NCBI GenBank assembly: GCA_963924555.1
Contig: OZ004587.1
Location: forward strand, 4,154,001 to 4,218,000
Direction of reading: 5' to 3'
Source of the DNA: Crambe crambe
Taxonomy: Eukaryota; Porifera; Demospongiae; Poecilosclerida; Crambeidae
DNA: 64,000 nucleotides
Under the pieces are notes generated by a model. It did no database searches. It was not told the DNA's origin and saw only the letters and a list, made by a program, of their open reading frames with translations. A program made the position numbers and the translations under genes. The number at the start of each line of letters is the position of its first letter. Within the stretch, counting starts at the first letter, position 1. This document shows, in pieces, positions 1-51,655 of this stretch.

Positions 1-268
1 CTGCACTTCATTTTTGTTCTTGTGTAAACTGTATGTGCCCCACATCCCCTAGTAGTTTATATGAGAAGGCAAAGAAAAATTAAGGAAGATAAGGGACTCT
101 TCTAGTGAAGGACAAAGCATGAGCATATCACTATTAGAATCAGAGCTTAAAATAATCAGCATTACTTTATTTTATACTGAAAACTTTGAAATATTAGCCA
201 AATAAATACAAAGAGTGTGCATTAATTGACATGAATAAGTGATGTTATGTGTGTAGTTACACCGACTA

Positions 269-1094
269 CCATAGGGCAGGTTAATTTCGTCAGGAAAAAA
301 TTCCGTCATATCAGGAATCGTTACAGAGGTTTGCACGGTTCTTGCACCTTGAAGTGCCACGCGCATGCTCATTATAATTCCATAGCAATGACTTCTTGTG
401 AACCTACTCATTGCAGTGCTTGCAGTGAGGACCTTCGTTGGCGAATTGTGTGGTAGACAGAAGCTCTTCACTATACTAGTAAACTTTGTCTAGCTACACG
501 ATCACAAGAAGTCGTCATTCTACTATGTTGCCATGGAATTTACACGCATGCGCGTGGCGCTTTCCATCAATAAAGGTGCAAGAATGAAAAAATTGAACGG
601 ATAAATCTAGCACATGCGCATTGAAGACGAAATTTTCCCCCCGCCATGTTTCTGTTGAAGCAAAGATGGACTATTTCGAGAGAGAGACTTGCGTTTGTGG
701 CTATCACAAATGCACCCTTGTTGCTGGCTAACCTCGTTAGACATCTTAATGTATGGACCTCTCTTTTTAACCTGACGCATCTCTTCAACTGCACTGTTAG
801 CTGCTACTATAGCCTTTGGTGATATCAAAGCAGACAATGGTCCATCAGGATTGGGGAGATCCCTACCAGGTATAACTTTGAAGTATTTGAGAAGAGCCAT
901 GAGCAGCATTTGGAGCAGTTCTCTTACAGCATTCTCTAGCTAGCTCTCGCATGAAGCGATTGACGATCTACCACGTGTGTGCTGTGCAAAAAATATGTGC
1001 AAAAATTTATGACAGTAAAAAATTATAATTTCAACTTTATACCAATGGTGAAATAGACGAACTTTTTTCCTCACGAAATTAACCCACCCTACGG
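269..1094. mobile_element. TA-duplicating DNA transposon, internally deleted, copy 1
   Basis: An 826-bp element with imperfect terminal inverted repeats: CCATAGGGCAGGTTAATTTC on the left, and the reverse complement of the right end begins CCGTAGGGTGGGTTAATTTC. It sits between two TA dinucleotides (267-268 and 1095-1096). The related sequence at 14,732 has a single TA and no element, so it is an empty site. A second inner inverted repeat pairs roughly 335-395 with 525-585. The minus strand carries a transposase N-terminus. TA duplication suits the pogo/mariner group. Confidence 0.82.
607..900 (-). pseudogene. Transposase N-terminal fragment inside the TA element, copy 1
   Basis: Reading leftwards from an ATG at 900, the frame starts MALLKYFKVIPGRDLPNPDG, continues with a serine/alanine-rich linker and ends its recognisable part at the basic stretch KKRGPYIKMSNE. 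I recognise this layout from DDE-type transposase-like proteins of sponges and cnidarians, where a helix-turn-helix follows the KRGxY motif. Here the helix-turn-helix and catalytic parts are gone and the frame runs on into unrelated sequence. The same fragment is kept in copies 2 and 3. Family naming is from memory and tentative. Confidence 0.5.
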
Positions 1095-1545
1095 TATGAG
1101 ATGCTATAGTTGAAAACTACATACTGAATAGCTCTGAAATGGACGTTCTAGAAAGTAGGAAGTGCTAGTCAGTATGAAACTGTAGTTTTCAACTATGGCA
1201 TCTCATAAGTCGGTGCCTTATTATTCATGAGCAACCAAAGTGACTTCATAGTTACTGTACTCATTATTAGTTGTGATTTTCTAAATTCTAGTTGCTGCAT
1301 GATCTCTAAGTAGTCATACATGTAGCTGTAATTAGCCAGTGATTGTTTACTACACATACAATGGTACATCACATGCTGTAATTACAGTCAACATGTAAAC
1401 AATGACATTATCATGTGTGGTGTGGGCACAATCCATAAACTTCCAACTTAGTAGCTCTATGAGAATATTAGTACTAGAGTGAGAGTTTTCTTCCTTCACA
1501 TCACAGGACTATATCGGGAGAGACTTGAAGGACCCACGACTAGAC

Positions 1546-2772
1546 ATGATAGTCTCAGCAGAAACAACAACCGAATACAGCTCAGAATTACACGAGGCAG
1601 CCAAAGCTGGAAATCTATACTTGGTGAAGCAGCTCATAGCAAAAGGCCACAACCCTATGGTTAAGGATAGAAACAATAAAACTGTACTACATTGTGCAGC
1701 TGACTATGGTAAACTAGATGTTATCAAGTTCTTAATCGAAGAAGTGTCGTGTAACCCAGCTCCCTCTGGCTGGCATGGAATAACTCCTCTACACTCTGCA
1801 GCCGAAGCAGGGCATCTCTCAATCGTCGAATACCTGATAGAAAAACACCAAGTAGATCCCCTCAGCCAGGATGAGGATGGCCTCTCCCCTCTACATAGAG
1901 CCTGTATGGGTGGTGATTTAAATGTAGTGAAATTCATGATGAAGACAATGCTTGAGTACATGAAAATAGAAGAAATATTTACCGATTCCTCAAAACATAA
2001 AACTACCCCCATTCATGAAGCAACCAGGCATCTAAACATTGTGAAATATATGATCAGTGAGTGTAAGTATGACCCCAACACTCCTGATGTATATGGCCGA
2101 GGACTAATTTTTGATGCTGCCCAGAAGGGTCACCTGTCCATTGTCAAGTTCTTGACATTGGAGTGTGGTTGTGACCCTGAGAGTACAGACATGGAACAGT
2201 GGACCCCACTACATGTTGCTGCAGGTGAAGGACACTTGCCAGTAATCGAGTTCCTTTCCCAAGAAATGAAGAGTAATCCCAACTACAGGGACGAGCGCAA
2301 CAACACTCCCCTTCATGAAGCAGCCCTTGCTGGTCATTGTGAAGTGGTGGAGTATTTCATCAACACCTTGCATTGCAGCCCAAACACTCCTGGTCAATAT
2401 GGATGTATGCCACTACATATGGCTTCCCTAAAGGGTCACCTCAACTTAGTCAAGAACCACGTTGAAAAGTATGCCTGTGACCTTAATAGCTTGGATGACA
2501 ATAAAGACACGCCTCTTCACTGGGCAGCTAGGAAAGGACACTTGTCCATCGTCCATTATCTAACCCAGAACAAAGAATGTAATAACATGTGCCAAGATAT
2601 CAATGGAGAAACTCCACTCCATTGGGCTGCCGTATTCGGTCAACTCTCAGTAGTCAAGCATTTCGTTGAACATCTCCATTGTCCTCCACACATCAGAATC
2701 AAGTTTAACAAGACACCACTCCAGTTGGCCCTAGAGAAGGGTCACAGTGAGGTGGTTGATTATTTACAATAA
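1546..2772 (+). CDS. ANK1: ankyrin-repeat protein, about 12 repeats
   Basis: Encodes about 408 residues made almost wholly of ankyrin repeats. Twelve units can be counted by their TPLHxAA-type turns (ELHEAA, VLHCAA, PLHSAA, PLHRAC, PIHEAT, LIFDAA, PLHVAA, PLHEAA, PLHMAS, PLHWAA, PLHWAA, PLQLAL). Ankyrin stacks are protein-binding scaffolds; no catalytic domain, membrane segment or signal peptide is seen. The conserved first ATG is 1546, but the frame is open back to an acceptor at 1506 (DYIGRDLKDPRLD), so this is probably a 3' exon and the first exon is unidentified. An upstream in-frame TGA near 1480 rules out simple 5' extension. Repeat 5 lacks three residues present in ANK2 and ANK3. Paralogues: 15,300, 35,300 and the broken 39,269. 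Confidence 0.85.
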   Translation: MIVSAETTTEYSSELHEAAKAGNLYLVKQLIAKGHNPMVKDRNNKTVLHCAADYGKLDVIKFLIEEVSCNPAPSGWHGITPLHSAAEAGHLSIVEYLIEKHQVDPLSQDEDGLSPLHRACMGGDLNVVKFMMKTMLEYMKIEEIFTDSSKHKTTPIHEATRHLNIVKYMISECKYDPNTPDVYGRGLIFDAAQKGHLSIVKFLTLECGCDPESTDMEQWTPLHVAAGEGHLPVIEFLSQEMKSNPNYRDERNNTPLHEAALAGHCEVVEYFINTLHCSPNTPGQYGCMPLHMASLKGHLNLVKNHVEKYACDLNSLDDNKDTPLHWAARKGHLSIVHYLTQNKECNNMCQDINGETPLHWAAVFGQLSVVKHFVEHLHCPPHIRIKFNKTPLQLALEKGHSEVVDYLQ

Positions 2773-4180
2773 CCATGCAAAATTAGCTGATTATGCTTCA
2801 CCATTATCTGTTTTACTTCTATTTTTAATCTTAGTTTGTATTACTCACCTAAGCTTGTTTATGTTTATTACAATGATCTATTATTCCATACCATTCAATG
2901 TCTTCTTTTAGAAAAAAAATACTTTGTTCTTGGGATAATTATACTGAACATCTCATGCAGCTACTATGTGGCTTGTACACTTTACAAGCCTTTAACAGCT
3001 TTTCATGTTTTGCACCCATTACCTGTCTCAAGTAGTTACTATCAGTAAAGAAAAAATGTCACAGTCCTAAATTGTACAGATCAGTAATTACAAGTGTAGA
3101 GTTCATGGTTGTCCAAGTCCCAGTGCCAGGATACTTTCAACCACTCTGGAGTTAATTACTGTATTCACTCATATCAATAGCTAGCTACAATAATAAGATG
3201 AGACTAAAAGAGTCATATAAATCTCAGTTTTTAAGAGATAATAAAATGTTGACGTGATTAGTATATAACTACTTCTTCTTTGGCTTGCTGTGTAATGGGG
3301 TCATGTAATGATGATGTAATGGTGGGTGGAGCAACAAAGAATGCTTCACAAGGTAATTGCTTCATAATGAGTGATATGGGATATGTTATTATCATGAAAA
3401 AGTGTCTAGAGAGGTGTGCTAATCTGTGCAATCCAAAGGATAAAGAGTATCGAGAATACCCTGGTAGTGGAATAAAGGCAGACTTGGACTAGCTACCATA
3501 CCAAGCATCTCATATGTGGCTTATTATAGGGTACTTTGGTTTGAAATGAAGGTGCCGGTAACTGGTTACTGAAGTTACAAAGGTTACAAATGTCTTCCTA
3601 GCTATATATACAACTTAGTGTGTAGCTACCTGGATACTAAAGTCATATGGTTTCAAAGTAACTGGTTACAAAAGTTACAAAGGTTACAATGTCAATAAGA
3701 GCAGCAGCAAAAGCATAATTATTAGGAAGAGCTTGATGAATACAATAACTCCATAGTAACTCCATAGTAACTCCACAGTTGTGGAAAATATTCTGGCACT
3801 GGGACCAAGGCAGACTTGGACAATTATACTAATCAATGCAGGATGAAGAATATCAAGGAACCATCCATCTCATAACTCCACCCATTAAAATAAATTTAAA
3901 CCCTTCCCAGATTTTGTTAGTGTAATGTCAACCTCTGGCCTGCAATATATGCATGTTTTTGAGGCTGTTGTTAATATACACTGTAGCAGAGTCCCGGCTC
4001 AAGAATGCAGTAGTAAGGAGATGATATATGATCCTCATGTAAGATTATAGTTATGAAACCAATAATTCTGAGTGCATATTATTCTCACAATTAGTCTAAG
4101 AGTTGATCTATTAGTTATTCCATGTAGCATTTTTCCTGCCTACACTGTATTCTCGTGAATTTGAAGGGCTATTCCAACCA
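2773..4180. repeat. Downstream ANK repeat block, copy 1
   Basis: After the ANK1 stop comes sequence shared with 36.5-38.2 kb (nearly identical over 2,900-3,840) and more distantly with 16.6-18.1 kb. It includes a short recurring motif built on GTAACTGGTTAC followed by AGTTACAAAGGTTACAA (3,553-3,690). A segment at 3,890-4,180 matches 20,680-20,950 and 47,820-48,060. I see no gene here; short frames at 2,836 and 3,280 recur only because the DNA is duplicated. Confidence 0.75.
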
Positions 4181-4270
4181 CTTGATATCATTTTGCTGAC
4201 ATAGCTACTACTTGATATCATTTTGCTGACATAGCTACTACTTGACATCATTTTGCTGACATAGCTACTA
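4181..4270 (+). repeat. Tandem repeat, 30-bp unit, 3 copies
   Basis: Three head-to-tail copies of a 30-bp unit beginning CTTGATATCATTTTGCTGAC, with one base change in the third copy. Confidence 0.95.
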
Positions 4271-5388
4271 GCAACTGAGTGCATGTGTAGTCATTTGAAG
4301 TTTACCATCCTCAGTTAGTTTTATAAAACAATTAGTAGTGAGTTATAAGTCAATAAGTATTAGCTAGCTATTGTAGTCAGTCTGTTTGACTAACACTGGC
4401 TAACGAAGTTAGTATGATGTTAGAAAATGATGAACACAATGTTCAATACATGCATTGCTAGCTTATAGCTATAAATATGATCATTCAGTGAATATGTATC
4501 TGAATGTAACATTATTGTTTGTTGTCAAATTAATTGGTAGGTGGGGAGGACATTGACCATTGTCTAATCTTGTTGAAAAATAAGCCAGTAGCTGAATCCC
4601 AATAATCTGTACACAACTGGAAGAATAAGTTCACAAAGGACATCGCCAATGTAGAGAAGGGACATACCAGTGGGCTATACCTTCAAAATAAAAAGTCATA
4701 GCTAAATCATTTCCAGTCACAGTAGTGTTAGCAATGATTTCATTGATGGTATAGCTAGTCTATTCTTGTTTCTTCGTATAGATCACCTATTACTATAGTT
4801 GTGATTGCACATAGATTAGACCAGCTGTGAGTTAGCTACAACTCCAACTTTACTCTTCTGATTTAGGACTGCCCCCACATCCTTCTCTACTCAACTGCAT
4901 ATAAATCTGAAAAGAACAAAAAAAAAACAAAAAAAAAAACAACTGGATAACTGGAAGTGCATACATTCACACTCTAAACTGCAAAGAAGAAATGATGACT
5001 AAGCTCTCGGTCACAGAACAATTTGCTATTAGTATTCTTAAATAATTAACTATCTTCAATCATTGTGATTGGTGTACGTAGCTAAGGACTCACAAGATAG
5101 TTGAATATCAATAATCAATCTGGCCATTCACAAATCACACTTATTCTCCAATTCACATGATATAGAAACACGTTTGAAATACACATACATGTAATTATAT
5201 GTACTTAATTCTCGATATTAGTCTGATTAACAGATTTTTATGATACTGTGATAATCTGTACCTGAATTACATTAATGTCATGTGATGTCTGTTTAATTGT
5301 ACAAGCACTTTCCATTCTAGGCTGTAGAAATATCCTGGCTTAAAAAGTGGGTGAATAACAAGCTTTTAAAAAGTTCATTATTAATTTT
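4271..5388. other. Intergenic, no feature recognised
   Basis: AT-rich DNA between the ANK1 downstream block and the D1 promoter. It contains a short A-rich run near 4,918-4,940 and nothing I can assign to a gene or a repeat family. Confidence 0.5.
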
Positions 5389-5417
5389 TGACGTCACTAA
5401 TGAATTGCGCACGCGCG
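5389..5417 (+). promoter_or_regulatory. Candidate promoter motifs of D1 (CRE-like and NRF1-like)
   Basis: A TGACGTCA palindrome (5389-5396) lies 10 bp before a CG-rich TGCGCACGCGCG (5406-5417). D2 has the same pair at the same relative place. The sites resemble CREB/ATF and NRF1 sites; their use here is inferred. Confidence 0.45.
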
Positions 5418-5740
5418 TCTTGAGTTTATATAATATATCTAAACCACACCCATATTTTTGGTCTTTATCAAAAAGCTTATCTTCTTGTAAGTTACCGTTG
5501 AAAAACCGAGATTTGAATCGCTAGACAGTCGTACATCCTATTAGGCTCTAGCTAACATCATCCTATCATCGAACCTCTACAAGGAAGGCGGGGCTTGTAC
5601 CACCACTACTAAAAGTCACTGTACGTACTTCTCACCTAAAGAGGTACTTATAGGAGCAAGTGGTCCCTCCTGATGATCAGATAGTGTAGTTGCTTTATTT
5701 CTCCCTTGTCAATCTCCCTGTCTAGTTTCATTCTCCATCT

Positions 5741-8700
5741 ATGCTACAACCCATACCCTCGTATCATCAAGACTACCAAATGGACCCTGGCTCATTCCAG
5801 CCCCTCAACCTCTCCTTCTCATTGGTGCTTCTCTCTGCTCTACTGATGTTGAGTGGAGATGTGGAACTCAATCCTGGACCTGAGAGTGAGTCCATTGTTA
5901 ACTGGATGTGTGGATAGGTCACTTGATCGTAATAGCTAGCTGGAAATCAGTCATTATGCTAAGTTATCAGAATTATATAGGACAACCTACTTAACTACCT
6001 GACAAAAAGTAGATTTAATACAAGTGTATTGCTCTTATTATGTTCCTGCAGCTGTCTTAGTTGCAATGGATCTTAAGATGGTGAGGAATTTCATATGGGG
6101 AGCCCATACCAAGTGGTACCACATAGGTGTGGAGTTGGAAATGGATCCTTCCACACTACAAGCAATCAAGGAGAATTTCTCCAACAATCCTGCTAATTGC
6201 TTTAGTCAAGTACTGCTGGACTGGCTGGAGGGACAAGGCTTGGAATCTACATGGTCAAATCTAGCTGCAGCTTTAAAGGCACCACCTGTTGGAATGTCAG
6301 CTCTAGCTGAAGCAATTGAAGCAAAATATCTTGGAGATACACATCAACCTGGTAAGTAATGCTAACTAATTGGTCTTTGTTTATTCCATCCACTTTCCTA
6401 TTTAGTTTCAGATTTACGCTAATTTTCTCCTGCAAAATTTTACTCTTGTTCTTTCCTTCATTTAAATTTCATGGATTAAGGCAGTTCAAAATAAATTACT
6501 TGTTTAACGGATTTCCCTGCCCTATTTTTACAGAATTGAAATAAATTTAGTTTTGTATATTCTCAGTATACTGCTGTTTATCTTTGTACACTAGATCTCA
6601 GTATACTCCTCTTTCTTGTATACTAGAACACATGACCATATAAACAAGATGCATAGTATACTGAGGTAGTTTATATGTAATAGTTAGAACACGGTAGTCT
6701 GGTGATTATGGCCAATAAACAACCGAATCCGAGGGCGCAGCCCGAGGATAAGGTTGTTTATTTGGCCATAATCACCAGGACTACCGTGTTATAACTGTTA
6801 TATATCCCCAGGGCGCACGATTTCATTGGTCGGTCTGTAGCTAGAGCGTAGCTACCCCTTAGTTACGAAACAAAACGAAAACTCCTGCCATGGCTTGTCC
6901 CTGGCCCTGTCCTGGGATGTGCCGTTGTTCAGACTCGAACTCACAGTACAGAGCCTCGTGCTCTCAAGCAAGACTACGAACTACGAGGCTCCTCCCATGC
7001 CCACCACACCCGGTACCCAGCTATTAACGAGTTCTTCCACCCACGTTTTGGCGAAGCTAGCGGAAGGTATGACGCCAAAAAATACCAATGGGCCTTAGAA
7101 ATAATTTCTTCTTGTGTGAAAATTGCAAAAAAAAAAAAAAAAAAAAAAAAGCTATGAAGTTTCCTTGTGACCCAGCACCAGATGACTTCTTCATTTTCCA
7201 ACAATCAGCTATAAACTACCCAGAGACAGAAATAGATTAATGACAATGTTATAGACTGATCGTTAACTTCTTCTTCCAACAGTCAGCTATAAACTACCAA
7301 TATAATACAGAGACAGAAATAAACTCTTTAGTAATAGCTAATTAATGACAATGTTATCTGATCATTATCTCATGCATAGATTATCTTCATTATCTTATAT
7401 CATTATCATTATCATTATAGGTTATCTTCATTATCATCTTCTTCCAACAGTCAGCTTCAGAAAACCTGTTATTCATAGCCTGGGGAACAGTGCGTTATGA
7501 GTCATAACGCACTTTACCCTAAGGGAGGGAATTTATGACAGTAAGAGCACTTTTCTCTATGGGAGTAAATGTATTAGGTGGGATATATTTAAGTTTATTT
7601 CGTCCTGCCTGCCCATAAGAAAGGAGAAAAAATCTGTTAAACAAGTGATTTGTTTGGAACTGCCTAATAGTTAACAATTAACATAATAAAGCTGGTATAA
7701 TGGAAGTAATTAGGTCTTGTTTACTAAACATTGGATCATTGCAACTTCAGCAAGTGCTGTAATTCAGTTATCCCACTTCACTTAACTACTATAGGTGCAG
7801 AAATTTTGCTACCAGATAATACACCTACTTCATGTACAAGTTCAGAAGGTAAATAATTTTAATGTCTAAATAGCTGATCTGACTATTCAATTGATTTAAG
7901 TTAGGTAATACTTCTCGGACACATGCAGTCTTCATTGGTCTATATTCATAGAGTTTCTAGACACAAATCATAATCCATACTTTAACTAGCTAGCAGCAAA
8001 TTGGACTTGTAGTTTTTAAGTGATCTTCCAGAGCTATAGGGTCAGGGATTAACTACGGCAGTTGATGAAATTAATGTTGATAAATACTTGTTACGGTTCT
8101 CTTTTGTCTCTAGTGCTTGTAATTTCGCCCAGACTTTGTTAACTTTTGATTAGCTACTGCCATAAACTCTCTGTGTACTATATAAGTAGTCTGTAATAGT
8201 ATAGCAATGGTAGATAATAATGTGATACTTTCTTGATCTAGATTCATCAAAATCTCAATATCCTGAATCTGTTATTACATCTACAATTAGTTCATGCTCC
8301 AGCTCTGGTAAGTTAAGATAACAGTAAATATGTACCTGTGAAGATGACTTTAAATACTCTCAGAGCTAAGTGCTGTGGACCTCACTCCATGCTTTCCTTT
8401 TCTTGCTACTAAAGACTTATCAGAAGCTGAAAAAGATTTTAAAAGGCAGCAGCTCTACAGTGAGACTCAGGATATCAGACGAAAGTTTGCTGGTCTCGTT
8501 TTCAATCTGCAAAAAACTGTGGAGAAGTTTCACTCAGTTAAAGATGTCAAAAATGTCTTGATATACCATGATAGGAACTTTGAGAATCTGTTACAAGGTT
8601 GTGCAACCATAGCAGATACATTCGTTGAGGCCACTAAGTATTCGTCCTTTTTTGACCATGGAATAATCAAGCTTTTAACCAAAGAACTGGGAACGAATTC

Positions 8701-9397
8701 GAATAAGAAGAAACTTCGCCAATTTCAAGAAACGTTTCAGGAGTATTCTAGAAGAAGAATCTGCGAATGTCCCAGCAATGTATTTGGTGAAAAAGAAACG
8801 TCAGATACAGTGCTTGTACTCAAGAGTGAAATGAAAGTGGAGGACACTACTGTTGAAGAGCTTCGTATATATCAGCATCGGATGAATCGTATCTTGAAAA
8901 CATCCACCATGCGATTGCTACACGTCGATAAAGGTTGCATGGAGCTAACTTTCAGAGTACTTGGAGATGCTTTACATGTAGAAGGCATCACTAAAGAGAA
9001 ACAGCAAGCATTAAGAAATATGGGAATCATCAGCATTAGTTACGGAGAGCTTCATTTTGATCTGATCTCCCTTGTTAAGAACGAAGGAACTGACGCTCCA
9101 CTTGGAATCGAGGAAGGTGAGAAGCACTATCAAGTTATCAACTTGGTCACATCTAAGGTTATAGTTTCAAATTTCACAGATGTCCTTCCCTATCCAGACC
9201 CTCTCATTCCTTCCCTCTCTCTGGTGGGACCAATGACTGCTCTTGATATAAAAGGTGATGCTGATGACAACATTGATGCTGACTCAGCACTCGGCACTAT
9301 CAGTGACGTGACTGGAACAGATGTGGGTAGCTATCCTACAAATGATATGAGCATAGTCACTGCAGGTCTCAGGACTGAGGTCTCTGATGAGTTCCAG
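5741..9397 (+). CDS. D1: Death-domain protein with N-terminal 2A leader, six exons, 3' end open
   Basis: Six exons join in one frame with GT-AG introns: 5741-5885, 6052-6351, 7795-7848, 8242-8307, 8364-9116 and 9198-9397 (506 codons). Exon 1 gives a 48-residue leader: hydrophobic LNLSFSLVLLSALLMLS at residues 22-38, then the 2A motif GDVELNPGP at 39-47. Exon 2 (about residues 49-149) is a Death domain (conserved W, IGVELEM, FSQVLLDWL, TWSNLAAAL, LAEAIEAKYL), a homotypic adaptor fold of apoptosis and innate-immune signalling. Exons 3-4 encode a Ser/Thr-rich linker. Exon 5 encodes about 250 residues of a conserved domain I do not recognise (QEYSRRRICECPSNVFGE, LRLLHVDKGCMELTF-like). Exon 6 is acidic and Ser/Thr-rich. 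A donor follows residue 506; later exons were not found. Without splicing there, the frame stops at 9448. D2 has the identical exon pattern. Confidence 0.82.
5855..5881 (+). other. 2A ribosome-skipping motif in D1
   Basis: Codons 39-47 of the D1 leader read GDVELNPGP, matching the 2A consensus D-x-E-x-N-P-G-P. In characterised 2A peptides the ribosome fails to join the final Gly and Pro and continues, giving two chains from one frame. Here the break would fall between codons 46 and 47, four nucleotides before the end of exon 1, and would separate the hydrophobic leader from the Death-domain protein. Confidence 0.88.
6682..6795. repeat. Inverted repeat in D1 intron 2
   Basis: Two arms of about 43 bp pair (6682-6724 with 6752-6795) around a 27-bp GC-rich loop containing CCGAGGGCGCAGCCCGAGG. 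It lies within the long D1 intron 2 (1,443 bp, against 249 bp in D2), so it is likely part of an insertion absent from D2. The sequence to about 7,200 (Cys-rich frame from 6890, 24-bp A run at 7127-7150) may belong to the same insertion; the family is unknown. Confidence 0.7.
7489..7513. repeat. 25-bp perfect palindrome with one centre base
   Basis: AGTGCGTTATGA and its exact reverse complement flank a single G in D1 intron 2. Upstream (7,185-7,360) lies an imperfect tandem duplication of about 85 bp. No gene in this intron. Confidence 0.85.
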
Positions 9398-9455: not shown

Positions 9456-11690
9456 TAACTAACTTTCATATATAGTTTCGAGATAATCAGCAGTTAGTTT
9501 GATAATATTTTTTCCTCTCTACTAATGAAGACTATAACTGGGCAGTCTAAAAAATGTTCATAGCCCTGAGACCATTATTAATGTCAGCATAAAATACAAC
9601 TTTATTGGTAATCTACTACTTAAGCAAATTATCTTTTGGAGATCACTGTCATGACACCAGGTCAGTGTAGTCCTTCTAATAGTTCAAACAACTTACTGAT
9701 ATGAGCCAAAGGTCAAGGGTCAAGATGATTTCCACAATAATTCCCATGGAGCACAACTTTCAGGTAAACGTTTGAATACCATGAATGTTATGCTCTTATA
9801 CTATGAGCTATTACTGCATAACCTAGTTGCTGTAGTTTCTGTAATCCTTATAATTGTCAATATCAAGTCAGCTCAGAAAAAGAAGTTGTCTAGAATACAT
9901 AAGTTATGTAGCTGTTTTAAAATCAAGCAAAGCAAGCAAGCCTCTCTATAGTCACGTCAATACAAATTTTGAGAGGCATATAATGCACATGTTTTAATCT
10001 GGTATTTTATGCTGTAATTACGTATGTCAATAATAATCTTTATGTGCTTGTACATCAGTTCAAAAGTCAATTGATAATAGGCATGCATTTTACTCACTTT
10101 ATGACAATAAGCCTAAGGTAAGGAAGGGTGGCTTGATACGCAGCTATTGACTTGACTCAACAATGAATCTTGACAATCCAAGAGTCCAACGAAGAGGAGA
10201 GAGAGAGGTATAGTTCAAAGGTCAGCTGCTATGTAGAGAACAAGGCATCAGAGAGTCAGATTGCAGTGCTGCAAGCTGGTGAAGATAGAAACAACCAAGG
10301 CACTTGAGACTGTTGTAAGCTTAGGCAAGTGAAGAGAGCAACATGTAACATGTCATGGGGCGATCATCTACAGTGCTTCTTCCTTTTAATTTCCAAGAAA
10401 AAGCATGGAAATTGATTGTGTAAGGTTCACAGTTTACTAGACTACCTACCTGGAGCACTATACCACTACACTACCTCAGAAGTACAGGAAAGGGTTGCAT
10501 GCAGACTTCCCTAATGATGATGTGTCTCTGTTCAGCAGGTGATGTTGAAGGAGGTGCCCCTTAACTGGGGAGATTGATAGTATCAACAGAGTTAAATCAG
10601 AGTTTCCAATCTTCTGTCTATGAAATCTGTAGGACACATTGCTGCCAATTATGGTGATCAGAGCACGTGTTATTAGCTATATATTGGAATCATTCTTCGA
10701 CATGCTGCAGAAAATATAATCTGCAAGAATCATTGAGTAATTGGGTTGATTTCTTCTAGCTAAGCCTGTGCTACGCTCTTCTTCATTCAATGAGGCTCTC
10801 CCTGTGCAGGCCCTGGTACCTTGCTTGTTGTCGGCTTGCTGTAGTGTAGCTCCTAATTATTACTTAAGAAAATGAACCACATTCAAAACATGGACTGATA
10901 CTGCTATAATTATATCTCCATTTTGAACTATTGTATTCAATAGCCAAAGCGAGTCACACATTGAGTACCAAGACTCCAATTAGAGTACCTAATCTTATCC
11001 AGGTCTCTAATTTGAGTACCAATTCTTACTCAATTTTGAGTATGTACCTAATTCAGGACTCAAATTTGAGTACACGTTCTAATTCAGGACTCACTTTTTC
11101 TAATTAAGGACTCAAATTAGAATACCTAATCTTATCCAGTTATCAAATTTGAGTACCTAGTCTAATTTATGTCTCAAATTAGAGTATTCAAGACTTAAAA
11201 TTGAGTACCTAATCTTATTTACTTAGACTCAAAAATTAGAGTACCCAGTACTCCAATTCAAGTACCTATTTTAATTCAGGAATCAAATTATGTACTTAAT
11301 CTTGTACCTAATCTTACTTACTTGGACTCTTATATTTGAATACTCGATCAAAATTCAGGGCTTGCATCTTTTGATAATGGCTATCATACATACATACAGT
11401 ATATAAGGGATATGTGTATGTATGTTCTAACATACACTGCACTTCATTTTTGTCCTCGTGTAAACTGTATGTGCCCCACATCCCCTAGTAGTTTATATGT
11501 GAAGGACAAAGCATGAACATATCACTATTAGAATCAGAGCTCAAGATAATCACCATCACCTTGTTTTATACTGAAAACATGAAATAAATACAAAGAGTGC
11601 GCATTAATTGACCCCATAAACTATGAATAAGTTGTTATGTGTGTAGTTACACCGACTACCATAGGGCAGGTTAATTTCGATATTGTCATA
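9456..11690. repeat. Upstream repeat block, copy 2a (truncated)
   Basis: Begins just after the D1 3' part and matches 31.8-34.0 kb and 59.5-62.3 kb, with large differences. It contains the minisatellite at 10,935-11,345, then the flank of the TA element, and stops inside the left end of that element at about 11,690. No gene recognised. Confidence 0.75.
10935..11345. repeat. Palindromic minisatellite, array 1
   Basis: Degenerate repeats of about 28-34 bp whose core is the palindrome ACTCAAATTTGAGT or parts of it, spaced by CTAATCTTATT-like sequence. Related arrays lie at 13,566, 30,326, 33,250 and 61,455. Confidence 0.85.
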
Positions 11691-13840: not shown

Positions 13841-15259
13841 TTGCTTTTGTACTTGCTATTATTCGACATAGAACTGAAGAAAAAAATTAATTGATACCTT
13901 TCTCTGAAATAACAACTCAAAGAATTGGATTTTCTTCCAACTGTGAATTGGCACTCATAATAAGCATGCACCTTTTATACTGATCCCCTTGATGCATAAT
14001 TCGATGATTGGGTATGATTTTTTGGTGATTCAGAGCAAACCTTCAGACCCGTCAAATAAAATCCCCCAAGTAAAGTACTATAATATGGTATAACATTTAC
14101 ATATCTACTACCTGAGTATGTGTTCATCACCAAAACTCATTAGTTACCGTAACATTTCCTGATTTCCTGTAAAGCAAAAAACTCTTCCTATTCATGCTGT
14201 TCCCTCCCTGGTCGGTATAGTAATGAAAAAGGACATTATTTCTCCCCACTCAGTACTCCTTACAATAATTATGTCTGAAGATAACAATGCACATTTTATT
14301 GTTTACATGTTGACTGTCATTACTGCATGTGATGTACTGTATGTGTTAGTAAACAATAACTTATATATCATGATGGCACTATCTAGTTGAATTTCCATTA
14401 GTGTGGACCACAGAGCATTAATCACAACATTGCATGACTACTTGTAGACCATGCAGCAAGGACCATACAGGGATCTGTTAGACAGTCACAGCTAATAATT
14501 CATTTCTAGAGTTCAGTGACTAAAGAGGCAGACAATACTTCAAAAGGTAACTTTTATGGGACTAGTGAAGGACAAAGCACGAACATATCACTATTAGAAC
14601 CAGAGCTGGAAATAATCAACATCACCTGAAAACTTGAAATACTAGCCTAAATAATCCAAATAGTGTGCATTAATTGACCTTTTCCTACATAAACTATGAA
14701 GAAGTGATGTTGTGCTTGTAGTTACACTGACTATGAGACGCTATAGTTGAAAGCTGACTACTTCCTACTCTACAACTGAGGGCAAACCAGACGACTTAGC
14801 TGTCGATCGAGCAATTGAATGGCTCAAAAGTGCCATATATTGGCAAAATCTCTTGGACTCGCACTGCCCACTGGTTCATACGCAAGTACATATGGTCATG
14901 CAGTATATTGCTGCTGCTCAAGAAATTTGACAACTGAAAATAGTACTTTCCTCATTATTCATGAGCAAACATTATACCAAAGTGACTTCATAGTTACTGT
15001 ACTCATTATTAGTTGTGATTTTCTAAATTCTAGTTGCTGCATGATCTCTAAGTAGTCATACATGTAGCTGTAATTAGCCAGTGATTGTTTACTACACATA
15101 CAATGGTACATCACATGCTGTAATTACAGTCAACATGTAAACAATGACATTATCATATGTGTGGTGTGTGATATACAGGGCACAATCCATAAACTTCCAA
15201 CTTAGTAGCTCTATGAGAATATTAGTACTAGAGTGAGAGTTTTGTTCCTTCACATCACA
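13841..15259. repeat. Upstream repeat block, copy 2b (5' flank of ANK2)
   Basis: Left part (13,841-14,560) resembles 55,500-55,860 and 31,700-31,830. From about 14,560 it follows the ANK upstream block but lacks the TA element: at 14,732-14,733 a single TA marks the empty site. It ends in the ANK2 acceptor tract at 15,258-15,260. No gene recognised. Confidence 0.7.
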
Positions 15260-15299
15260 GGACTATATCGGGAGAGACTTGAAAGACCCACGACTCGAC

Positions 15300-16553
15300 A
15301 TGATAGTCTCAGCAGAAACAACAACCGAATACACCTCAGAATTACACGAGGCAGCCTCAGCTGGAAAGTTAGACTTGGTGAAGCAGCTCATAGCAAAAGG
15401 CCACAACCCTATAGTGAAGAATAGAAATAATGTTACTGCTCTCCATTGTGCAGCTCGATATGGTAAACTAGATGTTATCAAGTTCTTAATTGAAGAGGTT
15501 TCGTGTAACCCAGCTTCCTCAGGCTGGATTGGAGCAACTCCTCTACACCATGCGGCCGAAGCAGGACATCTCTCAATCGTCAAATACCTGATAGAAAAGC
15601 ACCAAGTAGATCCCCTCTGCCAGGATGAGGATGGCTGCTCCCCTCTACATAGAGCCTGTATGAGTGGTGATTTAAATGTAGTGAAATTCATGATGAAGAC
15701 AATGCTAGAGTACATGAAAATAGAAAAAATATTTGCCGATTCCTCAAAACATAAATCTACTCCCATTCATGAAGCAGCCTTCAAGGGACATCTAAACATT
15801 GTGAAATATATGATCAGTGAGTGCAAGTGTGATCCTAACATTCGTAGTGGTAATTATGGTAGAGGACCTCTCTTTGCTGCTGCCCAGAAGGGTCACTTGT
15901 CCATCGTCAAGTTCTTGACATTGGAGTGTGGTTGTGACCCTGAGAGTACAGACATGGAACAGTGTACCCCACTACATGCTGCTGCAAGGAACGGACACTT
16001 GCCAGTAATCCAGTTCCTTTCCCAAGAAATGAAGAGTAATCCCAACTACAGGGACAAGCACAACAACACTCCCCTTCATTCAGCAGCCCTTGCTGGTCAT
16101 TGTGAAGTGGTGGAGTATTTCATCGACACCTTGCATTGCAGTCCAAACACTCCTGGTCAGTATGGAAGAATGCCATTACATATGGCTTCCCAAGAGGGTC
16201 ACCTCAACCTTGTCAAGAACCTCGTTGAAAAGTACACCTGTGACCCTAATAGCTTGGATGACAATAAAGTCACACCTCTCCACTGGGCTGCTATATTTGG
16301 ACACTTGTCTATCATCCATTATCTAACCAAGAACAAAGAATGTAATAACATGTACCAAGATATCAATGGAAATACTCCACTCCATTTAGCTGCCAAGTTC
16401 TGTCAACTCTCAGTAGTCAAGCATTTCGTTGAACATCTCCATTGTCCTCCACACACAAAAAACAAGTTTAACAAGACACCACTCCAGCTGGCCCTAGAGA
16501 AGGGTTGCAGTGAGGTTGTTGATTACGTATTTACAATAACCATACAAAATTAA
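15300..16553 (+). CDS. ANK2: ankyrin-repeat protein, about 12 repeats
   Basis: Encodes about 417 residues with the same twelve ankyrin units as ANK1 and ANK3, including the intact unit PIHEAAFKGHLNIVKYM that ANK1 has shortened. The conserved ATG is at 15,300 and the frame is open back to the acceptor at 15,260, so an upstream exon is likely. The C-terminus differs from its siblings: a small insertion before the usual end changes DYLQ-stop to DYVFTITIQN-stop. Expected to be a soluble binding scaffold; no other domain seen. It stands alone, with the D1 gene and repeats on the left and a duplicated block on the right. Confidence 0.85.
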   Translation: MIVSAETTTEYTSELHEAASAGKLDLVKQLIAKGHNPIVKNRNNVTALHCAARYGKLDVIKFLIEEVSCNPASSGWIGATPLHHAAEAGHLSIVKYLIEKHQVDPLCQDEDGCSPLHRACMSGDLNVVKFMMKTMLEYMKIEKIFADSSKHKSTPIHEAAFKGHLNIVKYMISECKCDPNIRSGNYGRGPLFAAAQKGHLSIVKFLTLECGCDPESTDMEQCTPLHAAARNGHLPVIQFLSQEMKSNPNYRDKHNNTPLHSAALAGHCEVVEYFIDTLHCSPNTPGQYGRMPLHMASQEGHLNLVKNLVEKYTCDPNSLDDNKVTPLHWAAIFGHLSIIHYLTKNKECNNMYQDINGNTPLHLAAKFCQLSVVKHFVEHLHCPPHTKNKFNKTPLQLALEKGCSEVVDYVFTITIQN

Positions 16554-19160
16554 CTATTTATCCTTCACCATTATCTCTTCTTTTTTTTTAATTTGTATTA
16601 CTCACCTAAGCTTGTTTATGTTTATTACAATGATCTATTATTCCAATGAACCATTAATTGTGATTAGTAACTACTTCTTTGGCTTGCTGTGTAATGGGGT
16701 CATGTAATGATGATGTAATGGTGGGTGGAGCAACAAAGATGCTTCACTAGATAATTGCTTCATAATGAGTGATATGGGTGATGTTATTATCGTTATCTAG
16801 TTTCAAATTATTGTGTGAGATGTTGGACCATGAAAAAGTGTCTTCAAACACAGAGGTGTGCTAATCGATGTGATCGGAAGATAAAGAGTATCGAGAGTAC
16901 CCTTGTAGTGGAATAAAGGCAGACTTGGACTAGCTACCATACCAACCATCTCATGTGTGGCTTATTATAGGGTACTTTTGTTTGAAATGAAGCTACTGGT
17001 AACTGGTTACAGAAGTTATAAAAGTTACAAATGTCTTCCTAGCTACATATACCACTTAGTGTGTAGCCACCTGGATACTAAAGTCATATGGTTTCAAAGT
17101 AACTGGCTACAGAAGTTACAATGTCAACAAGTTCAGCAGCAAAAACATAATTATTAGGAAGAGTTTGAGGACTAACTATGAATACAATAACTCCATAGTA
17201 ACTCCACAGTAACTCCACAGTATTCTGGCACTGGGACCAAGGCAGACTTGGATAACCATACTAATCAATGCAATCCAAAGGATAAAGAATATCGATGAAC
17301 CATCCATCTCATATCTGTCCTATTATAGGTTTGAAATGAAGCTACTGGTAACTGATTACAGAAGTTACAAAGGTTACAAATGTCTTCCTACAAACATATA
17401 CCTACGTACCACTTAGTGTGTAGCCACCTGATACTAAAGTTATTTTGTTTCTATTTTTTATGGTAGCTAAAAGTCTTATGGAACAAAAATTCAAAACGGA
17501 TTTATTGGTATCATTTATTTAAAGCACTTTATCTATGGTAAATCAAATTATTTTTGTTCTTGGGGATAAACTGAACATCTCATGCATTTAACGATTTTCA
17601 TGTTTTGCACATAAAGCAAGCTTGGCATTGCATGTCACAGTCCTAAATTGTTCATATTAAGCAGATCATAAACTGTGACTGCATTTTGCAGCTAAATTGC
17701 GATTATTGTCCTAACCATAGTCCAACATCTCATTCAACAGTTTTAAAGTTAAGATAATAATAATAACATATATTGTAACTAGCTATTGACATGAATGACT
17801 CCAGAGTGGTGGAAAGTGTCCTGGCACTGGGACCAAGGCTGACTTGGACAACCATGCTAATCAGTGTAATCCAAAGGATGCAGAATATCGAGGAACCATC
17901 CATCTCATATGTATGTGTCTTATTATAGGGCACTTTGAGCTACTGGTAACTGGTTACAGAAGTTACAAAGGTTACAAATGTCTTCCTAGCAACATATACC
18001 ACTTAGTGTGTAGCCACCTGGATACTAAAGTCATATGGTTTCAAAGTAACTTGTTACAAAAGTTACAAAGGTTACAATGTCAACCAGAGCAGCAGCAAAA
18101 ACATAATTAGGAAGAGCTTGAGGGCTTACTACTCTCTTACCTGTGGTGTGATGTAGCTAGCTTGTACGTTTCACAAGTCTATGCAAATAAAAAAGAAAGT
18201 GGCACTTGTTCATGGTACACATTATCTTCTTATGCCTGCTGAGCCAGGCAAATGTTTGTTCACAGGCCATAGTGTTGAAGTTGTGGTTTTCAGCCCTTAA
18301 ATCATCCATACTATATTTTTGTCTGCAAGATTGATCTCTGTGGTTCCATACATGGAGACCATTGTATAAAAATCATCAATTACCTGTAATAAGCTAGCAA
18401 CTGCGCTATGTTTGAATGTTGTTGCCATAGCTACCTTGGTGATGTTGGACCAGATATACTTCAGGTCTCCAGGCAAAGGTAAAGGTAATTTAGCGACTAT
18501 AAGGTTATCGAGGTGACACATGTTGTCATAAGATATTTTCCGACACCCAATTCTTCCTAATGATTCACTAGCAATGTCAGAACCAAAAAGAAGACTTATG
18601 CTGGACTGGTAGCTTGTACACTTACAAGCCTTTGTGGCTTGTGACTTGTAGCTTGCATGTCCTTTATAGCTTGTAGCTGTAGCTTGTACACCTACAAACC
18701 TATAACAGCTTCTCATATTTAGCACAATAAGACCCCTTTTAACATAATTTTATGTTATAGTTATGCAAGCTTGGCATTGCATGTCACAGTCCTAAATTGT
18801 GCAGTTCATAAACAAGTACAATTTAAATAATGTCAATAGCTATGACCCGTTGGGGCACATGCCTCTGCATTTTGCAGCTAAATTATAATTATTGTGGACA
18901 CCTTTCCATGGTCTAACATCTCATTCAACAGTTTTAAAGTCAATGATAATAACTTCTTATCTCTCATTTTATGAAGCTCTTGGAGCATCTTTGTTGCCCC
19001 AAAATGCCTCAATGCTTTGTTGTGCTTTGTGCTACGCACAAGCACACCGGACCACTCAAGATTCTGTGGATACACCCCTGTCAAAATGTCCAAAAGGAAG
19101 AGGATATCATTTGAGCTGCAATCAAATTTGCAGTATTAAATTCTTGATGACAGAGTAGGA
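16554..19160. repeat. Downstream ANK repeat block, copy 2
   Basis: Matches 36.6-39.16 kb in pieces. The GTAACTGGTTAC-type motif occurs three times (16,981-17,125; 17,338-17,370; 17,938-18,085). The part from 18,290 to 19,160 parallels 38,560-39,150, including a truncated piece of the short element seen whole at 45,076 (ending near 19,086). No gene is supported; the 142-codon minus frame at 18,297-18,725 is not kept in the parallel copy. Confidence 0.65.
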
Positions 19161-26534: not shown

Positions 26535-29500
26535 ATGCTAAAACCCATACCCTCGTATCACCAAGACTACCGAATGGACCCTGGCTCGTCCCAGCCCCTC
26601 AACCTCTCCTTCTCATTGGTGCTTCTCTCTGCTCTACTGATGTTGAGTGGAGATGTGGAACTCAATCCTGGACCTGAGAGTGAGTCTATTGTTAACTGGA
26701 TGTGTGGGTAGGGTAAAGCGGGGTAATTCCGGTCGCGGTGCAATTCCGGTCACGCGGAGAAAGAATGTCAGTATCTACAGAGTTTTTGCACCAAATCAAT
26801 TTTTTTTCCTGCTACAGGTAGCTAGTTCACTTGACTACATTTGGGTAGAATGATTAGCATATACCTTGTTTCCTGTTGGCAGAGGAGCACTTGTTATTCT
26901 GTCATGTTTGACATGATCACCGTAGGCCTGTTAGTCAAAACTTCAGAATTTTATATATAGCTACTGAGATAAGGTAAGCAGGCAGCTCATGATTGTGAAA
27001 CTATTAACTACATTTATACTTGAGAGTAACTACACTTTAGTTTGCAGCTAAAGATCAGACACAGAGGAAATATCGCCACTAGTTTACAGCTTACAGGACC
27101 TAGTATCTAGACTATTCTCGAGCCAGACCCCTTACCGATTGTGTGTGAAAAAACATTTTGTAAGTATTAAGTTTTAACCTTTATCTGGAACTGCCAGAGA
27201 AGTAACCCTCAAGGTTCTGGGCAAGGAGGAGAGGAATTGACCATGCTATTACAGTATCCAGACATTATTATTGAATTCATCATCTTTTTCAATCTAAATC
27301 ACTGCAAATGGTTGATAGAACTTAGTTACAACTGTCTCCAGGTCCATGTTGCATCTAAACAGGTGCAAATAATTATAATACAACTTCATAAATCTTTTAT
27401 GCAGCTTTAACTGCAAAATAGATGAGCCGACTGGAATTACCCCATGAATTTGATTTCATCAATTTATTAGCTGCACACTTTAAATTATTTTTAATTCTAC
27501 ATTATTTCAACCTGCACTCTATCTTTTTGGAGCATAAACTGTACTAATGTGGTGCTGTCTGGGAAAAAAATTTCGAAGCTCATCCTTGCTTAACCTCTGC
27601 GTTTCGAGGGACTGAACATAGCAGTCATAAAGAGTGACCGGAATTACCCCGTTTTACCCTAGGTCACTTGATCGTAATAGCTAGCTTCAAGCTGGAAATT
27701 AGTCATTATGCTAAGTTATCAGAAATATATAAGATAACCTACTTAACTACCTGACAAAAAAGTAGATTTAATACAAGTGTATTGCTCTCATTATGTTCCT
27801 GCAGCTGTCTTAGTTGCAAGGGATCTTAAGATGGTGAGGAATTTCATATGGGGAGCCCATACCAAGTGGTACCACATAGGTGTGGAGTTGGAAATGGATC
27901 CTTCCACACTACAAGCAATCAAGGAGAATTTCTCCAACAATCCTGCTAATTGCTTTAGTCAAGTACTGCTGGACTGGCTGGAGGGACAAGGCTTGGAATC
28001 TACGTGGTCAAATCTAGCCGCAGCTTTAAAGGCACCACCTGTTGGTATGTCAGCTCTAGCTGAAGCAATTGAAGCAAAATACCTTGGAGATACACATCAA
28101 CCAGGTAAGTGTAGCTACTAATCTAGTCTTTGTGTATTCCTTCTTACTAAGTGGTATAATATTATGACTGACATCAATCAGAGTAACACACTAATCGAAA
28201 CCTCTATTGAGGCTTTTAGTCAGGCTAATATGAAATAGCTAAGAGCTATAATTGCATTAGGCTAGACTTCTGAGCTTGCCCTAATTAATTTAGCTATAGC
28301 AACTCAACAAGTGCTATATAATAATTTAATCTGATCACATTTCACTTGACTAGGTGTAGAAGTTGTGGTACCAGATAATACACCTACTTTATGTACAAAT
28401 TCAGAAGGTAACTAAACATTAATTTTGTATGGGATCTTGTTATACTAAGAAACATACTTTCTTTAACTAGACTCGTCGAGACCTCAATATCCTGAATCTG
28501 TTATTGCCTCTACAATTAGTTCGTGCTCCAGCTCTGGTAAGTTAATAATACCATGAAGATACTACTTATGTTATGTAATTTTTCAGAGCTAAGTGCTGTG
28601 GACCTCACTCCATGTTTTCCTTTTCTTGCTACTGATGACTTGTCAGAAGCTGAAAAAGACTTTCAGAGGCAGCAGCTCTACAGTGAGACTCAGGATATCA
28701 GACGAAAGTTTGCAAGTCTTGTTTTTGATTTGCAGAAGTCTACAGAGAAGTCATATAAACTTGAAGATGTCATTAATGTCTTAAAATTCCATGATAAGAG
28801 TTTCGAAAAGATATTAAAAGACTGTGCATCGATAGCAGAAGTATTTGGAAAGGCTTCTAGCTATTGGTCCTTTTATGACCATGGAATCGTCAAGCTTCTG
28901 ACTCAAAAACTCGGCACAGGTTCAAGTAAGAGAAAATTTCAACGATTTGAAGAAAAATTTCAGGAGTATTCTCGGAGAAGAATCTGCGAATGTCCCAGCA
29001 ATGTATTTGGTGAAAAAGAAAAGTCAGAAACAGTACTTGTGCTTAAGAGCGAAATGAAAGCGGAAGACACGACTGTTGAAGAGCTTCGCATATATCAGCA
29101 TCGGATGAATCGTATTTTGAAAACATCCACCATGCGATTGCTACATGTGGATAAGGGTTGCATGGAGCTCACCTTCAGAGTACTAGATATAGAAGGCATC
29201 ACTGAAGAGAAACAGCAAGCATTAAAAAATATAGGAATCATCAGCATTAGCTATGGAGATCTTCATTTCGATCTGACCTCCCTTGACAAGAACATTCCAC
29301 TTGAAAATAAGGAAGGTGAGAAGAGCTATTAACTTATTAACTTTCGAGTAGGTCAAATTTTATTGATGTTAGATGTTATCTTTCCCTGTCCAGAGCCTCT
29401 CAATACTGGCCTCTCTCTTGTGGGATCAATGGCTGGCCTTGATATTAAAAGTGGTGCTGATGATATCGATGCTGATTCAGCACTTGGTACTATCAGTGAC

Positions 29501-31790: not shown

Positions 31791-32689
31791 AACTAAAGAG
31801 GCGGACAATACTTCAAAGATAACCTTCATATATAGTTTCAAGATAATCAGCAGTTAGTTTGATAATATTTTTTCCCCTCTACTAATGAAGACTATAACTG
31901 GGTAGTCTAAAGTCACATCAATATCAACTTTGAGAGACATAATGCACATGGTATTTTCTGTGTAATCACTTATGTGAATAATTATCTTTATGTGCTTGTA
32001 CATCAGTTCAAAAGTCAATTGATAATACGTATGGATTTTACTCACTTTATGACAATAAGCCTAAGGTAAGGAAGGGTGGCTTGATACGCTCAAGTTTTCA
32101 GCTATTGACTCGACTCAACAATGAATCTTGACACTCCAAGAGTCCAACAAAGAGGAGAGAAAGAGAGAAAGAGGTATAGTTCAAAGGTCAATTGCTATGT
32201 AGAGAACAAGGCATCAGAGCGTAAGACTGCAGCGCTGCAAGATGGTGAACAACCAAGGCACCAGTGACCGTTATAAAGTTAGGCAAGTGAAGAAAGCAAC
32301 ATGTAAGGAGCTACACTACAGCAAGCCAACAGCAAACAAGGTATCAGGGACTGCCTCATTGAATGAAGAAGAGTATAGCATAGGCTTAGCTAGAAGAAAT
32401 TAGCCTAAATATGATTGTCGCAGATTATATTATCTGCAGCATGTTGAAGAATGATTTGTAGCTAATAACACGTGCTCTGATCACTATATTTGGCAGCAAT
32501 GTGTCTTACAGATTTCATAGACAGAAGGTTGAAACTCTGTTAATGCTCCCCAGTTAAGGGGCACCGCACTTCCTTCAACATCACCTGCCTGAACAGAGAC
32601 ACATCATCATTAGGAAGGTCTGCATGCAACCCTTTCCTGGACTTCATCCACATATTAATCATAAAAGTACAGTATACCTGAGTTACGGG

Positions 32690-34828: not shown

Positions 34829-35299
34829 TATGAGATGCTATAGTTGAAAACTACATACTGAATAGCTCTGAAATGGACGTTCTAGAAAGTAGGAAGTGCT
34901 AATCAGTATGAAACTGTAGTTTTCAACTTTGGCATCTCATAAGTCGGTGTAACTACTTGCCTTATTATTCATGAGCAACCAAAGTGACTTCATAGTTACT
35001 GTACTCATTATTAGTTGTGATTTTCTAAATTCTAGTTGCTGCATGATCTCTAAGTAGTCATACATGTAGCTGTAATTAGCCAGTGATTGTTTACTACACA
35101 TACAATGGTACATTACATGCTGTAATTACAGTCAACATGTAAACAACGACATTATCATGTGTGGTGTGTGACATACAGGGCACAATCCATAAACTTCCAA
35201 CTTAGTAGCTCTATGAGAATATTAGTACTAGAGTGTGAGTTTTCTTCCTTCACATCACAGGACTATATCGGGAGAGACTTGAAGGACCCACGACTCGAC

Positions 35300-36535
35300 A
35301 TGATAGTCTCAGCAGAAACAACAACCGAATACAGCTCGCAATTGCACGAGGCAGCCACAGCTGGAAAGTTAGACTTGGTGAAGCAGCTCATAGCAAAAGG
35401 CCACAACCCTATGGTGAAGGATAGATATGATTATACTGCTCTCCATCGTGCAGCTCTCTATGGTAAACTAGATATTATCAAGTTCTTAATCGAAGAAGTG
35501 TCGTGTAACCCAGCTCCCTCTGGCTGGCATGGAACAACTCCTCTACACCTTGCAGCTAACATGGGACATCTCTCAATCGTGGAATACCTGATAGAAAAGC
35601 ACCAAGTAGATCCCCTCAGCCAGGATGAGGAAGGTTGCTCCCCTCTACATAGAGCCTGTGTGGGTGGTGATTTGAATGTAGTGAAATTCATGATGAAGAC
35701 AATGCTCGAGTACATGAAAATAGAAGAAATATTTACCGATTCCTCAAAACATGAAACTACTCCCATTCATGAAGCTGCCTTGAGAGGGCATCTTAACATT
35801 GTGAAATATATGATCAGTGAGTGCAAGTGTGATCCCAACATTCGTGATGGTAATTATGGTAGAGGACCTCTCTTTCTTGCTGCACAGGAGGGTCACTTGT
35901 CCATTGTCAAGTTCTTGACATTGGAGTGTGGTTGTGACCCTGAGAGTACAGACATGGAACAGTCGACCCCACTAGATATTGCTGCAAAGAATGGACACTT
36001 GCCAGTAATCAAGTTCCTTTCTCAAGAAATGAAGAGTAATCCCAACTACAGGGACGAGTGCAACAACACTCCCCTTCATTCAGCAGCCCTTGCTGGTCAT
36101 TGTGAAGTGGTGGAGTATTTCATCAACACCTTGCATTGCAGCCCAAACACTCCTGGTCAGTATGGAAGAATGCCATTACATATGGCTTCCCAAGAGGGTC
36201 ACCTCAACCTTGTCAAGAACCTCGTTGAAAAGTACGCCTGTGAACTTAATAGCCTGGACTACAATAAAGTCACACCTCTCCACATGGCAGCTATGTTTGG
36301 ACACTTGTCCATCGTCCATTATCTCACCCAGAACAAAGAATGTAATAACATGTACCAAGATATCAATGGAAATACTCCACTCCATTGGGCTGCCGAGTTC
36401 AGTCAACTCTCAGTAGTCAAACATTTCGTTGAACATCTCCATTGTCCCCCACACACCAAAAACAAGTTTAACAAGACACCACTCCAGTTGGCCCTAGAGA
36501 AGGGTCACAGTGAGGTGGTTGATTATTTACAATAA
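35300..36535 (+). CDS. ANK3: ankyrin-repeat protein, about 12 repeats
   Basis: Encodes about 411 residues, the most regular of the four long copies: twelve ankyrin units from QLHEAATAGKLDLVKQL to PLQLALEKGHSEVVDYLQ. As in the siblings, the frame is open back to an acceptor tract (here before 35,266), so the shown ATG at 35,300 is the conserved internal one and an earlier exon is expected. In this copy alone the upstream in-frame stop is changed (TGA to TGT), which opens the frame to an ATG at 35,213; I do not take this as the true start because it would translate the conserved intron. A partial duplicate of its last two repeats follows at 36,791. Confidence 0.87.
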   Translation: MIVSAETTTEYSSQLHEAATAGKLDLVKQLIAKGHNPMVKDRYDYTALHRAALYGKLDIIKFLIEEVSCNPAPSGWHGTTPLHLAANMGHLSIVEYLIEKHQVDPLSQDEEGCSPLHRACVGGDLNVVKFMMKTMLEYMKIEEIFTDSSKHETTPIHEAALRGHLNIVKYMISECKCDPNIRDGNYGRGPLFLAAQEGHLSIVKFLTLECGCDPESTDMEQSTPLDIAAKNGHLPVIKFLSQEMKSNPNYRDECNNTPLHSAALAGHCEVVEYFINTLHCSPNTPGQYGRMPLHMASQEGHLNLVKNLVEKYACELNSLDYNKVTPLHMAAMFGHLSIVHYLTQNKECNNMYQDINGNTPLHWAAEFSQLSVVKHFVEHLHCPPHTKNKFNKTPLQLALEKGHSEVVDYLQ

Positions 36536-36790
36536 CCATACAAAATTAGCTGATTATTCTTCACCATTATCTGTTTTACTTCTATTTTTAATCTTAGTTT
36601 GTATTACTCACCTAAGCTTGTTTATGTTTATTACAATGATCTATTATTGCAATGAACCATTAATTGTGATTAGTAACTACTTGTTTGGCTTGCTGTGTAA
36701 TGGGGTGATATAATGATGTAATGGTGGGTGGAGCAAGAAAAATGCTTGATTAGATAATGAGTGGTGTATCTAGAGTTTGAGCTAGGAGGG

Positions 36791-51437: not shown

Positions 51438-51655
51438 ATGTGAGACTAAGTGCTAGCAAGAGTAAGTTCTATTCTACCTTGCTTGCTATAGCACCCTCTG
51501 TATTATTAGGGGCCACTGGCTCACATCTATACCATCTCAAAAGATATCCGAGTAATCAAAATAGTCTTTCTACAATCCTTTAGCTACTAACTGCTCTGAT
51601 AATCTAGCTTTAATTATGATCAAATTCAACAGGTTATTCTCCCTAGAAGACTTCA

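Follow-up and report, generated by a model that had tools for sequence, protein, structure and literature searches.

The window analysed here, a stretch of 64,000 nucleotides from the sponge Crambe crambe, contains two copies of a candidate gene in which a short leader exon ending in a 2A core is followed by a Death-domain exon, two small linker exons and a long fifth exon (Table 1). The second copy, a paralogue located 20.8 kb downstream, was overlooked in the original prediction. When joined, exons 1-5 of copy 1 form 533 codons without a single stop and exons 2-5 are all in phase. The exons of copy 2 present GT/AG borders and an open frame, and its exons 2-4, together with the acceptor of exon 5, correspond to those of copy 1. 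The exon borders of both copies were derived from the sequence and from the comparison of one copy with the other, and the ends chosen for exon 5 differ: that of copy 2 is placed at a GT donor lying further upstream, that of copy 1 at 9397.

Table 1. Coordinates of the predicted features of the two gene copies, numbered from the first base of the window.
Feature	Position	Strand	Remarks
Leader exon, copy 1	5741..5885	+	hydrophobic segment followed by 2A core GDVELNPGP (5855-5881); GTGAGT donor at 5886
Second ATG (M14), in frame	5780..5782	+	preferred start; leader from M14 is MDPGSFQPLNLSFSLVLLSALLMLSGDVELNPGP
Death-domain exon, copy 1	6052..6351	+	Pfam PF00531, E 1.2e-4, at cutoff; splice borders
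Candidate linker exon 3, copy 1	7795..7848	+	phase 1-1
Candidate linker exon 4, copy 1	8242..8307	+	phase 1-1
Long exon 5, copy 1	8364..9397	+	domain without assignment; database searches in the text
Candidate exon 6, copy 1 (FKSQLIIGMHFTHFMTISL)	10059..10117	+	counterpart at 32007-32065
Leader exon, copy 2	26535..26679	+	140/145 bases identical; last 89 bases identical
Death-domain exon, copy 2	27805..28104	+	294/300 bases identical; M54 to R
Candidate linker exon 3, copy 2	28354..28407	+	counterpart of copy 1 exon 3
Candidate linker exon 4, copy 2	28471..28536	+	counterpart of copy 1 exon 4
Exon 5, copy 2	28587..29315	+	end placed at first GT donor; candidate 3' end

Other elements were identified in the window. 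Intron 1 of copy 2 is interrupted by some 950 inserted bases (26708-27664) that have inverted ends and resemble a DNA transposon. Ankyrin-repeat gene copies are located at 15157-16577 and 35157-36577, with several blocks exactly 20000 bases apart and 82-95% identity, and further copies lie near 1.4 and 39.1 kb. The ORF at 51647-52900 encodes a protein kinase whose tail is charged and repetitive, and that at 53731-54060 has a match to the Cul7 domain.

The leader exon of copy 1 is translated as MLQPIPSYHQDYQMDPGSFQPLNLSFSLVLLSALLMLSGDVELNPGPE, and the C-terminal end of this 48-residue leader is LLMLSGDVELNPGPE. The exon closes with the donor AGA/GTGAGT (5885/5886), and the acceptor CTGCAG/CTG (6051/6052) restores the frame in phase 1. 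Translation and joining thus confirmed, in two copies, the exon that had been proposed: 48 codons, GDVELNPGP and a GT donor in phase with the Death exon. Two in-frame ATGs are present, both below the consensus start by the usual rule of start context, M14 being the better: positions -3 and +4 are T and C for M1, and C and G for M14 (MDPGSF...), which lies 39 nt 3' of M1. The copies differ at three sites in the 39 nt from M1 to M14, at two in the remaining leader exon and at none in its last 89 nt. Start context and this pattern of change make M14 the preferred start, and the sequence, with few changes between the copies behind the reading, suggests that translation begins there.

The lack of changes in those last 89 nt has a probability of about 0.026 at the intron rate. 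In the Death exon one nonsynonymous and five synonymous changes separate the copies, and exon 5 is 77% identical over the aligned part. Gene conversion was considered because exon 5 is far more diverged at synonymous sites (dS 0.47) than the Death exon (dS 0.079), and it may have homogenised the 5' part of the copies. The identity of the leaders was rejected as proof of strong selection, conversion being possible at these dS values and the copies being two.

The tetrapeptide NPGP was identified at two places in the six frames of the 64 kb, both belonging to the same leader, and base composition predicts 0.00028 DxExNPGP matches over all six frames of the window. The core of the leader agrees with the 2A/StopGo definition (D/G/C/N)(V/I)ExNPGP of PMC12846837. 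By eye, LLMLSG-D fits the L-rich StopGo motifs 2 and 6, which end in (A/S/C)G before D; of the upstream motifs, 1, 3, 4 and 6 have been tested and all four support activity (PMC12846837). The last 14 residues are identical in 13 positions to parechovirus E 2A2, a picornavirus 2A that is internal to its polyprotein and, unlike the leader, is devoid of an extended hydrophobic segment. In vitro this 2A is similar to FMDV 2A, with [GFP2A] as the major product and a low downstream product (PMC11512398). GDVELNPGP itself appears in Table 1 of PMC8623073 with ~99% for ERBV-1 and ~89% for 'Porv-C' (printed Porcine reoviridae A), percentages interpreted here as cleavage efficiencies. The 2A motif of the original prediction therefore holds, both in its core and in an upstream context of the tested-active type, and judging from the sequence it is likely that the leader 2A causes ribosome skipping. 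Given the low downstream product of parechovirus E 2A2, by analogy many ribosomes might stop after the leader rather than resume. A chance resemblance to an inactive 2A is conceivable for so short a motif, and parechovirus E 2A1 has a full core and is inactive (PMC11512398); the expectation given above, the right upstream class and the N-terminal position make such a coincidence highly improbable.

The hydrophobic segment was compared on three measures with the urchin leader, four retroelement leaders (L004-L007, described below) and 54 picornaviral 2As (rows of Table 1 of PMC11512398), and the Crambe leader was above all 54 viral sequences on each of them. The run of residues before the core without D, E, K, R, N, Q, H or P is 15 in the leader, a maximum of 8 in the viral 2As, 7 (L004), 10, 14 and 12 in the retroelements and 1 in the urchin leader, the last because of an Arg close to the core. 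The best 11-residue hydropathy is 2.65 in the leader, 3.19 in SpNLR2A6 of the urchin and 1.71-2.73 in the retroelements, with a viral maximum of 1.57, this being the one measure on which the urchin and the four retroelement leaders all exceed the 54 viral 2As. Mean hydropathy over 16 residues is 1.91 in the leader, 1.74 in the urchin and 2.24 in L005, with a viral maximum of 1.36; L004 (0.97), L006 (1.13) and L007 (1.30) fall within the viral range, one of the 54 viral sequences being as high. As the viral 2As have no such stretch, a long hydrophobic stretch is not required for picornaviral skipping and goes with leader-type 2As.

The leader had been described as signal-like, and of this description the N-terminal hydrophobic segment stands: among 19-residue segments that begin beyond residue 48 hydropathy peaks at 1.24, against 1.73 in the leader. 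Copy 1 has no Lys or Arg ahead of the hydrophobic part, and in copy 2 K3 and R13 both precede M14. Inspection by eye reveals no good signal-peptidase site under the -3/-1 rule, and we know of no secretory role for the hydrophobic 2A leaders of retrotransposons. Two points weaken the signal-like reading: L-rich segments upstream of the core also form part of the element that causes skipping (PMC12846837), and retrotransposons too have hydrophobic upstream segments.

The Death domain of the original prediction is borderline in both copies. In the search of exon 2 with Pfam Death (PF00531), copy 1 scores 22.6 bits, exactly at the cutoff of 22.6, and copy 2 scores 22.3, just below. A PDB sequence search with exon 2 returned two matches, a glycoside hydrolase (E 0.32) and THO complex subunit 1 (1wxp, E 0.36), the latter of which we take to be a Death domain. 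The predicted structure comprises five helices at low confidence (pLDDT 63.7), and the fold search of this weak model against the PDB gave no match at E <=0.001 and 28 with E up to 10, the best at 1.6. The product of exon 2 is a probable Death domain, and the gene a probable one for a protein of cell-death or immune signalling. Exon 5 is a domain conserved between the copies for which no relative was found in the databases searched: there were no Pfam matches at E 0.1 (both copies), no NCBIfam matches at E 1 (copy 1) and three matches to PDB sequences, none significant (E 0.32-0.59). Its AlphaFold model has a pLDDT of 35, and none of the 60 matches in genome contigs and 63 in viral contigs of a pattern search was confirmed as a relative. 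Pfam scans covering the frames of exons 2 and 5, in each of the two copies, gave no NACHT or LRR match at E 0.1.

Relatives of the leader were sought in genome contigs with a DNA pattern corresponding approximately to [LF]x[LF][STCRW]GD[VIM]ExNPGP. It was identified in five contigs from four MAGs and one symbiont assembly, all of them resembling eukaryotic contamination, and four of these are non-LTR elements (L004-L007), the fifth (L003) being a polyprotein of LTR type. The 2A shares the frame with the reverse transcriptase in L005 and L006; in L004 and L007 it occupies a frame of its own, immediately ahead of the one that encodes endonuclease and reverse transcriptase. In the four non-LTR frames it lies at residue 84 to 102, counted stop-to-stop and not from the true start. 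The LTR-type polyprotein of L003, a contig filed as a Planctomycetota MAG, is encoded on the minus strand (frame 2-7387) and carries two GDVEPNPGP in one frame. The L-rich 2A pattern had no match in the viral contigs; two matches of the plain 2A core there were rejected as chance-like, one being beside a Thr-Gly-Pro repeat and the other within a 986-residue frame.

2A segments of APE-type non-LTR retrotransposons are said to have been described by Odon in 2013. As in the Crambe leader, in the elements L004-L007 an L-rich stretch stands right before [SC]GDVExNPGP, upstream of the protein domains of the element; the difference is in what follows, retroelement ORFs with reverse transcriptase there and a splice donor plus the Death exon here. 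The leader of L004 is MDPGSLLLLSGDVETNPGP and has MDPGS and the L-rich 2A in common with the Crambe leader, reading MDPGS-LLLLSGDVETNPGP where the latter reads MDPGS...LLMLSGDVELNPGP. In the six frames of the window MDPGS is found twice, in the two leaders. The match of the four residues that follow Met has a p of about 4e-6, a post hoc figure out of some 10 comparisons, on one element from a MAG contig. The two features common to L004 and the leader make it possible, if doubtful, that the Death gene captured its first exon, via the phase-1 donor, from a non-LTR retrotransposon, at whose 5' end the signal-like 2A segment would open the first ORF of the element. Independent captures, if true, could explain why innate-immune genes of animals as distant as the sea urchin have N-terminal 2A leaders.

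The predominance of non-LTR elements among the contigs with the pattern is also in keeping with another origin, in which the leader exon would be the fossil 5' end of such an element near the gene, outside the mRNA, and the Death protein would start elsewhere, for example at an ATG of exon 2. Exon 2 of copy 1 does have in-frame ATGs of its own. The first of these (M54) is lost in copy 2, where it is AGG (R), though the next (M58) is kept in both copies. The leader, its donor, the acceptor and the phase are all kept in both gene copies, and the tblastn of six element proteins against the window gave no matches at E 0.01, that is, no element body accompanies the leader. These observations argue against a fossil, which is regarded as quite improbable, and in the favoured explanation a Death-domain gene, present in two copies, probably does begin with 5741-5885 as its 5' coding exon.

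According to this favoured explanation, ribosomes would scan leakily past the weak M1 and probably start at M14. The L-rich stretch and GDVELNPG would then fill the exit tunnel and the Gly-Pro bond would fail in most ribosomes, so that the short hydrophobic leader would be released and translation would resume, giving a cytosolic Death-domain protein starting with Pro (PETVLVA...). A few ribosomes would form the bond and make a leader-bearing protein, which SRP might recognise and direct to the ER. We lean to this reading, in which the 2A leader would mostly yield free Death-domain protein and a minor fused, possibly ER-targeted form; transcription of the leader-Death gene is deduced from the same DNA letters, as are the skipping and the targeting of the fused form. 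The word 'switch', once applied to the leader, was rejected, as nothing bears on regulation.

The hydrophobic stretch could instead just stall the ribosome, with no meaningful secretory form; the leader would then be a free peptide, or would set the amount of Death protein by a partial stop of the ribosomes. It is not obvious what a Death domain would do in the ER lumen, and hydrophobic stretches are also present in the four retrotransposon leaders. Pointing the same way, L-rich upstream motifs typify one StopGo class and a hydrophobic cluster is seen in the tunnel in the FMDV 2A structure (PMC12846837), and parechovirus E 2A2 gives scant downstream product (PMC11512398). However, none of the 54 picornaviral 2As has a hydrophobic run as long as that of the leader, and the similarly laid-out urchin leader takes a reporter to the Golgi once skipping is blocked (PMC4981915); a role in skipping only is held to be unlikely. 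For SpNLR2A6 of Strongylocentrotus purpuratus skipping is about 80%, a qualitative estimate, and the skipping-dead form goes primarily to the Golgi (PMC4981915, Roulston 2016). By analogy with this precedent dual targeting, with the fused form directed to the ER, is plausible, and is put forward tentatively.

The sea urchin precedent for N-terminal 2A-like signal leaders, invoked in the original prediction, is genuine (PMC4981915). The SpNLR2A proteins also have an N-terminal hydrophobic leader ending in SGDVExNPGP before an innate-immune protein with a Death-type domain (PMC4981915), and 12 of the last 14 residues of SpNLR2A6 equal those of the leader here. The gene models of both copies place the 2A at the N-terminus of the protein, as in SpNLR2A-type leaders. 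The differences are three: the Crambe leader forms an exon of its own that ends in a phase-1 donor, the word 'exon' having no mention in PMC4981915; the stretch upstream of its hydrophobic part is longer; and the protein has a Death match only, with no NACHT or LRR in the exons scanned (2 and 5).

Natural ribosome skipping in cellular genes is rare according to PMC12846837, which reports that cellular proteomes were searched by Rao 2025, and N-terminal 2A leaders on sea urchin NLRs have already been published (PMC4981915). Among the literature matches listed, none concerned an N-terminal leader of the 2A type from a sponge or from a Death-domain protein devoid of NACHT, which is weak evidence of absence. 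The leader described here is an addition to the SpNLR2A-type leaders, on a protein without NACHT in the exons scanned. A 2A leader at the N-terminus of a further kind of animal Death-type gene, and a duplicated one, would mean that the sea urchin leaders are no curiosity. It would then become testable whether innate-immune genes split their protein between the cytosol and the secretory route by skipping, and whether retrotransposons provide such leaders.
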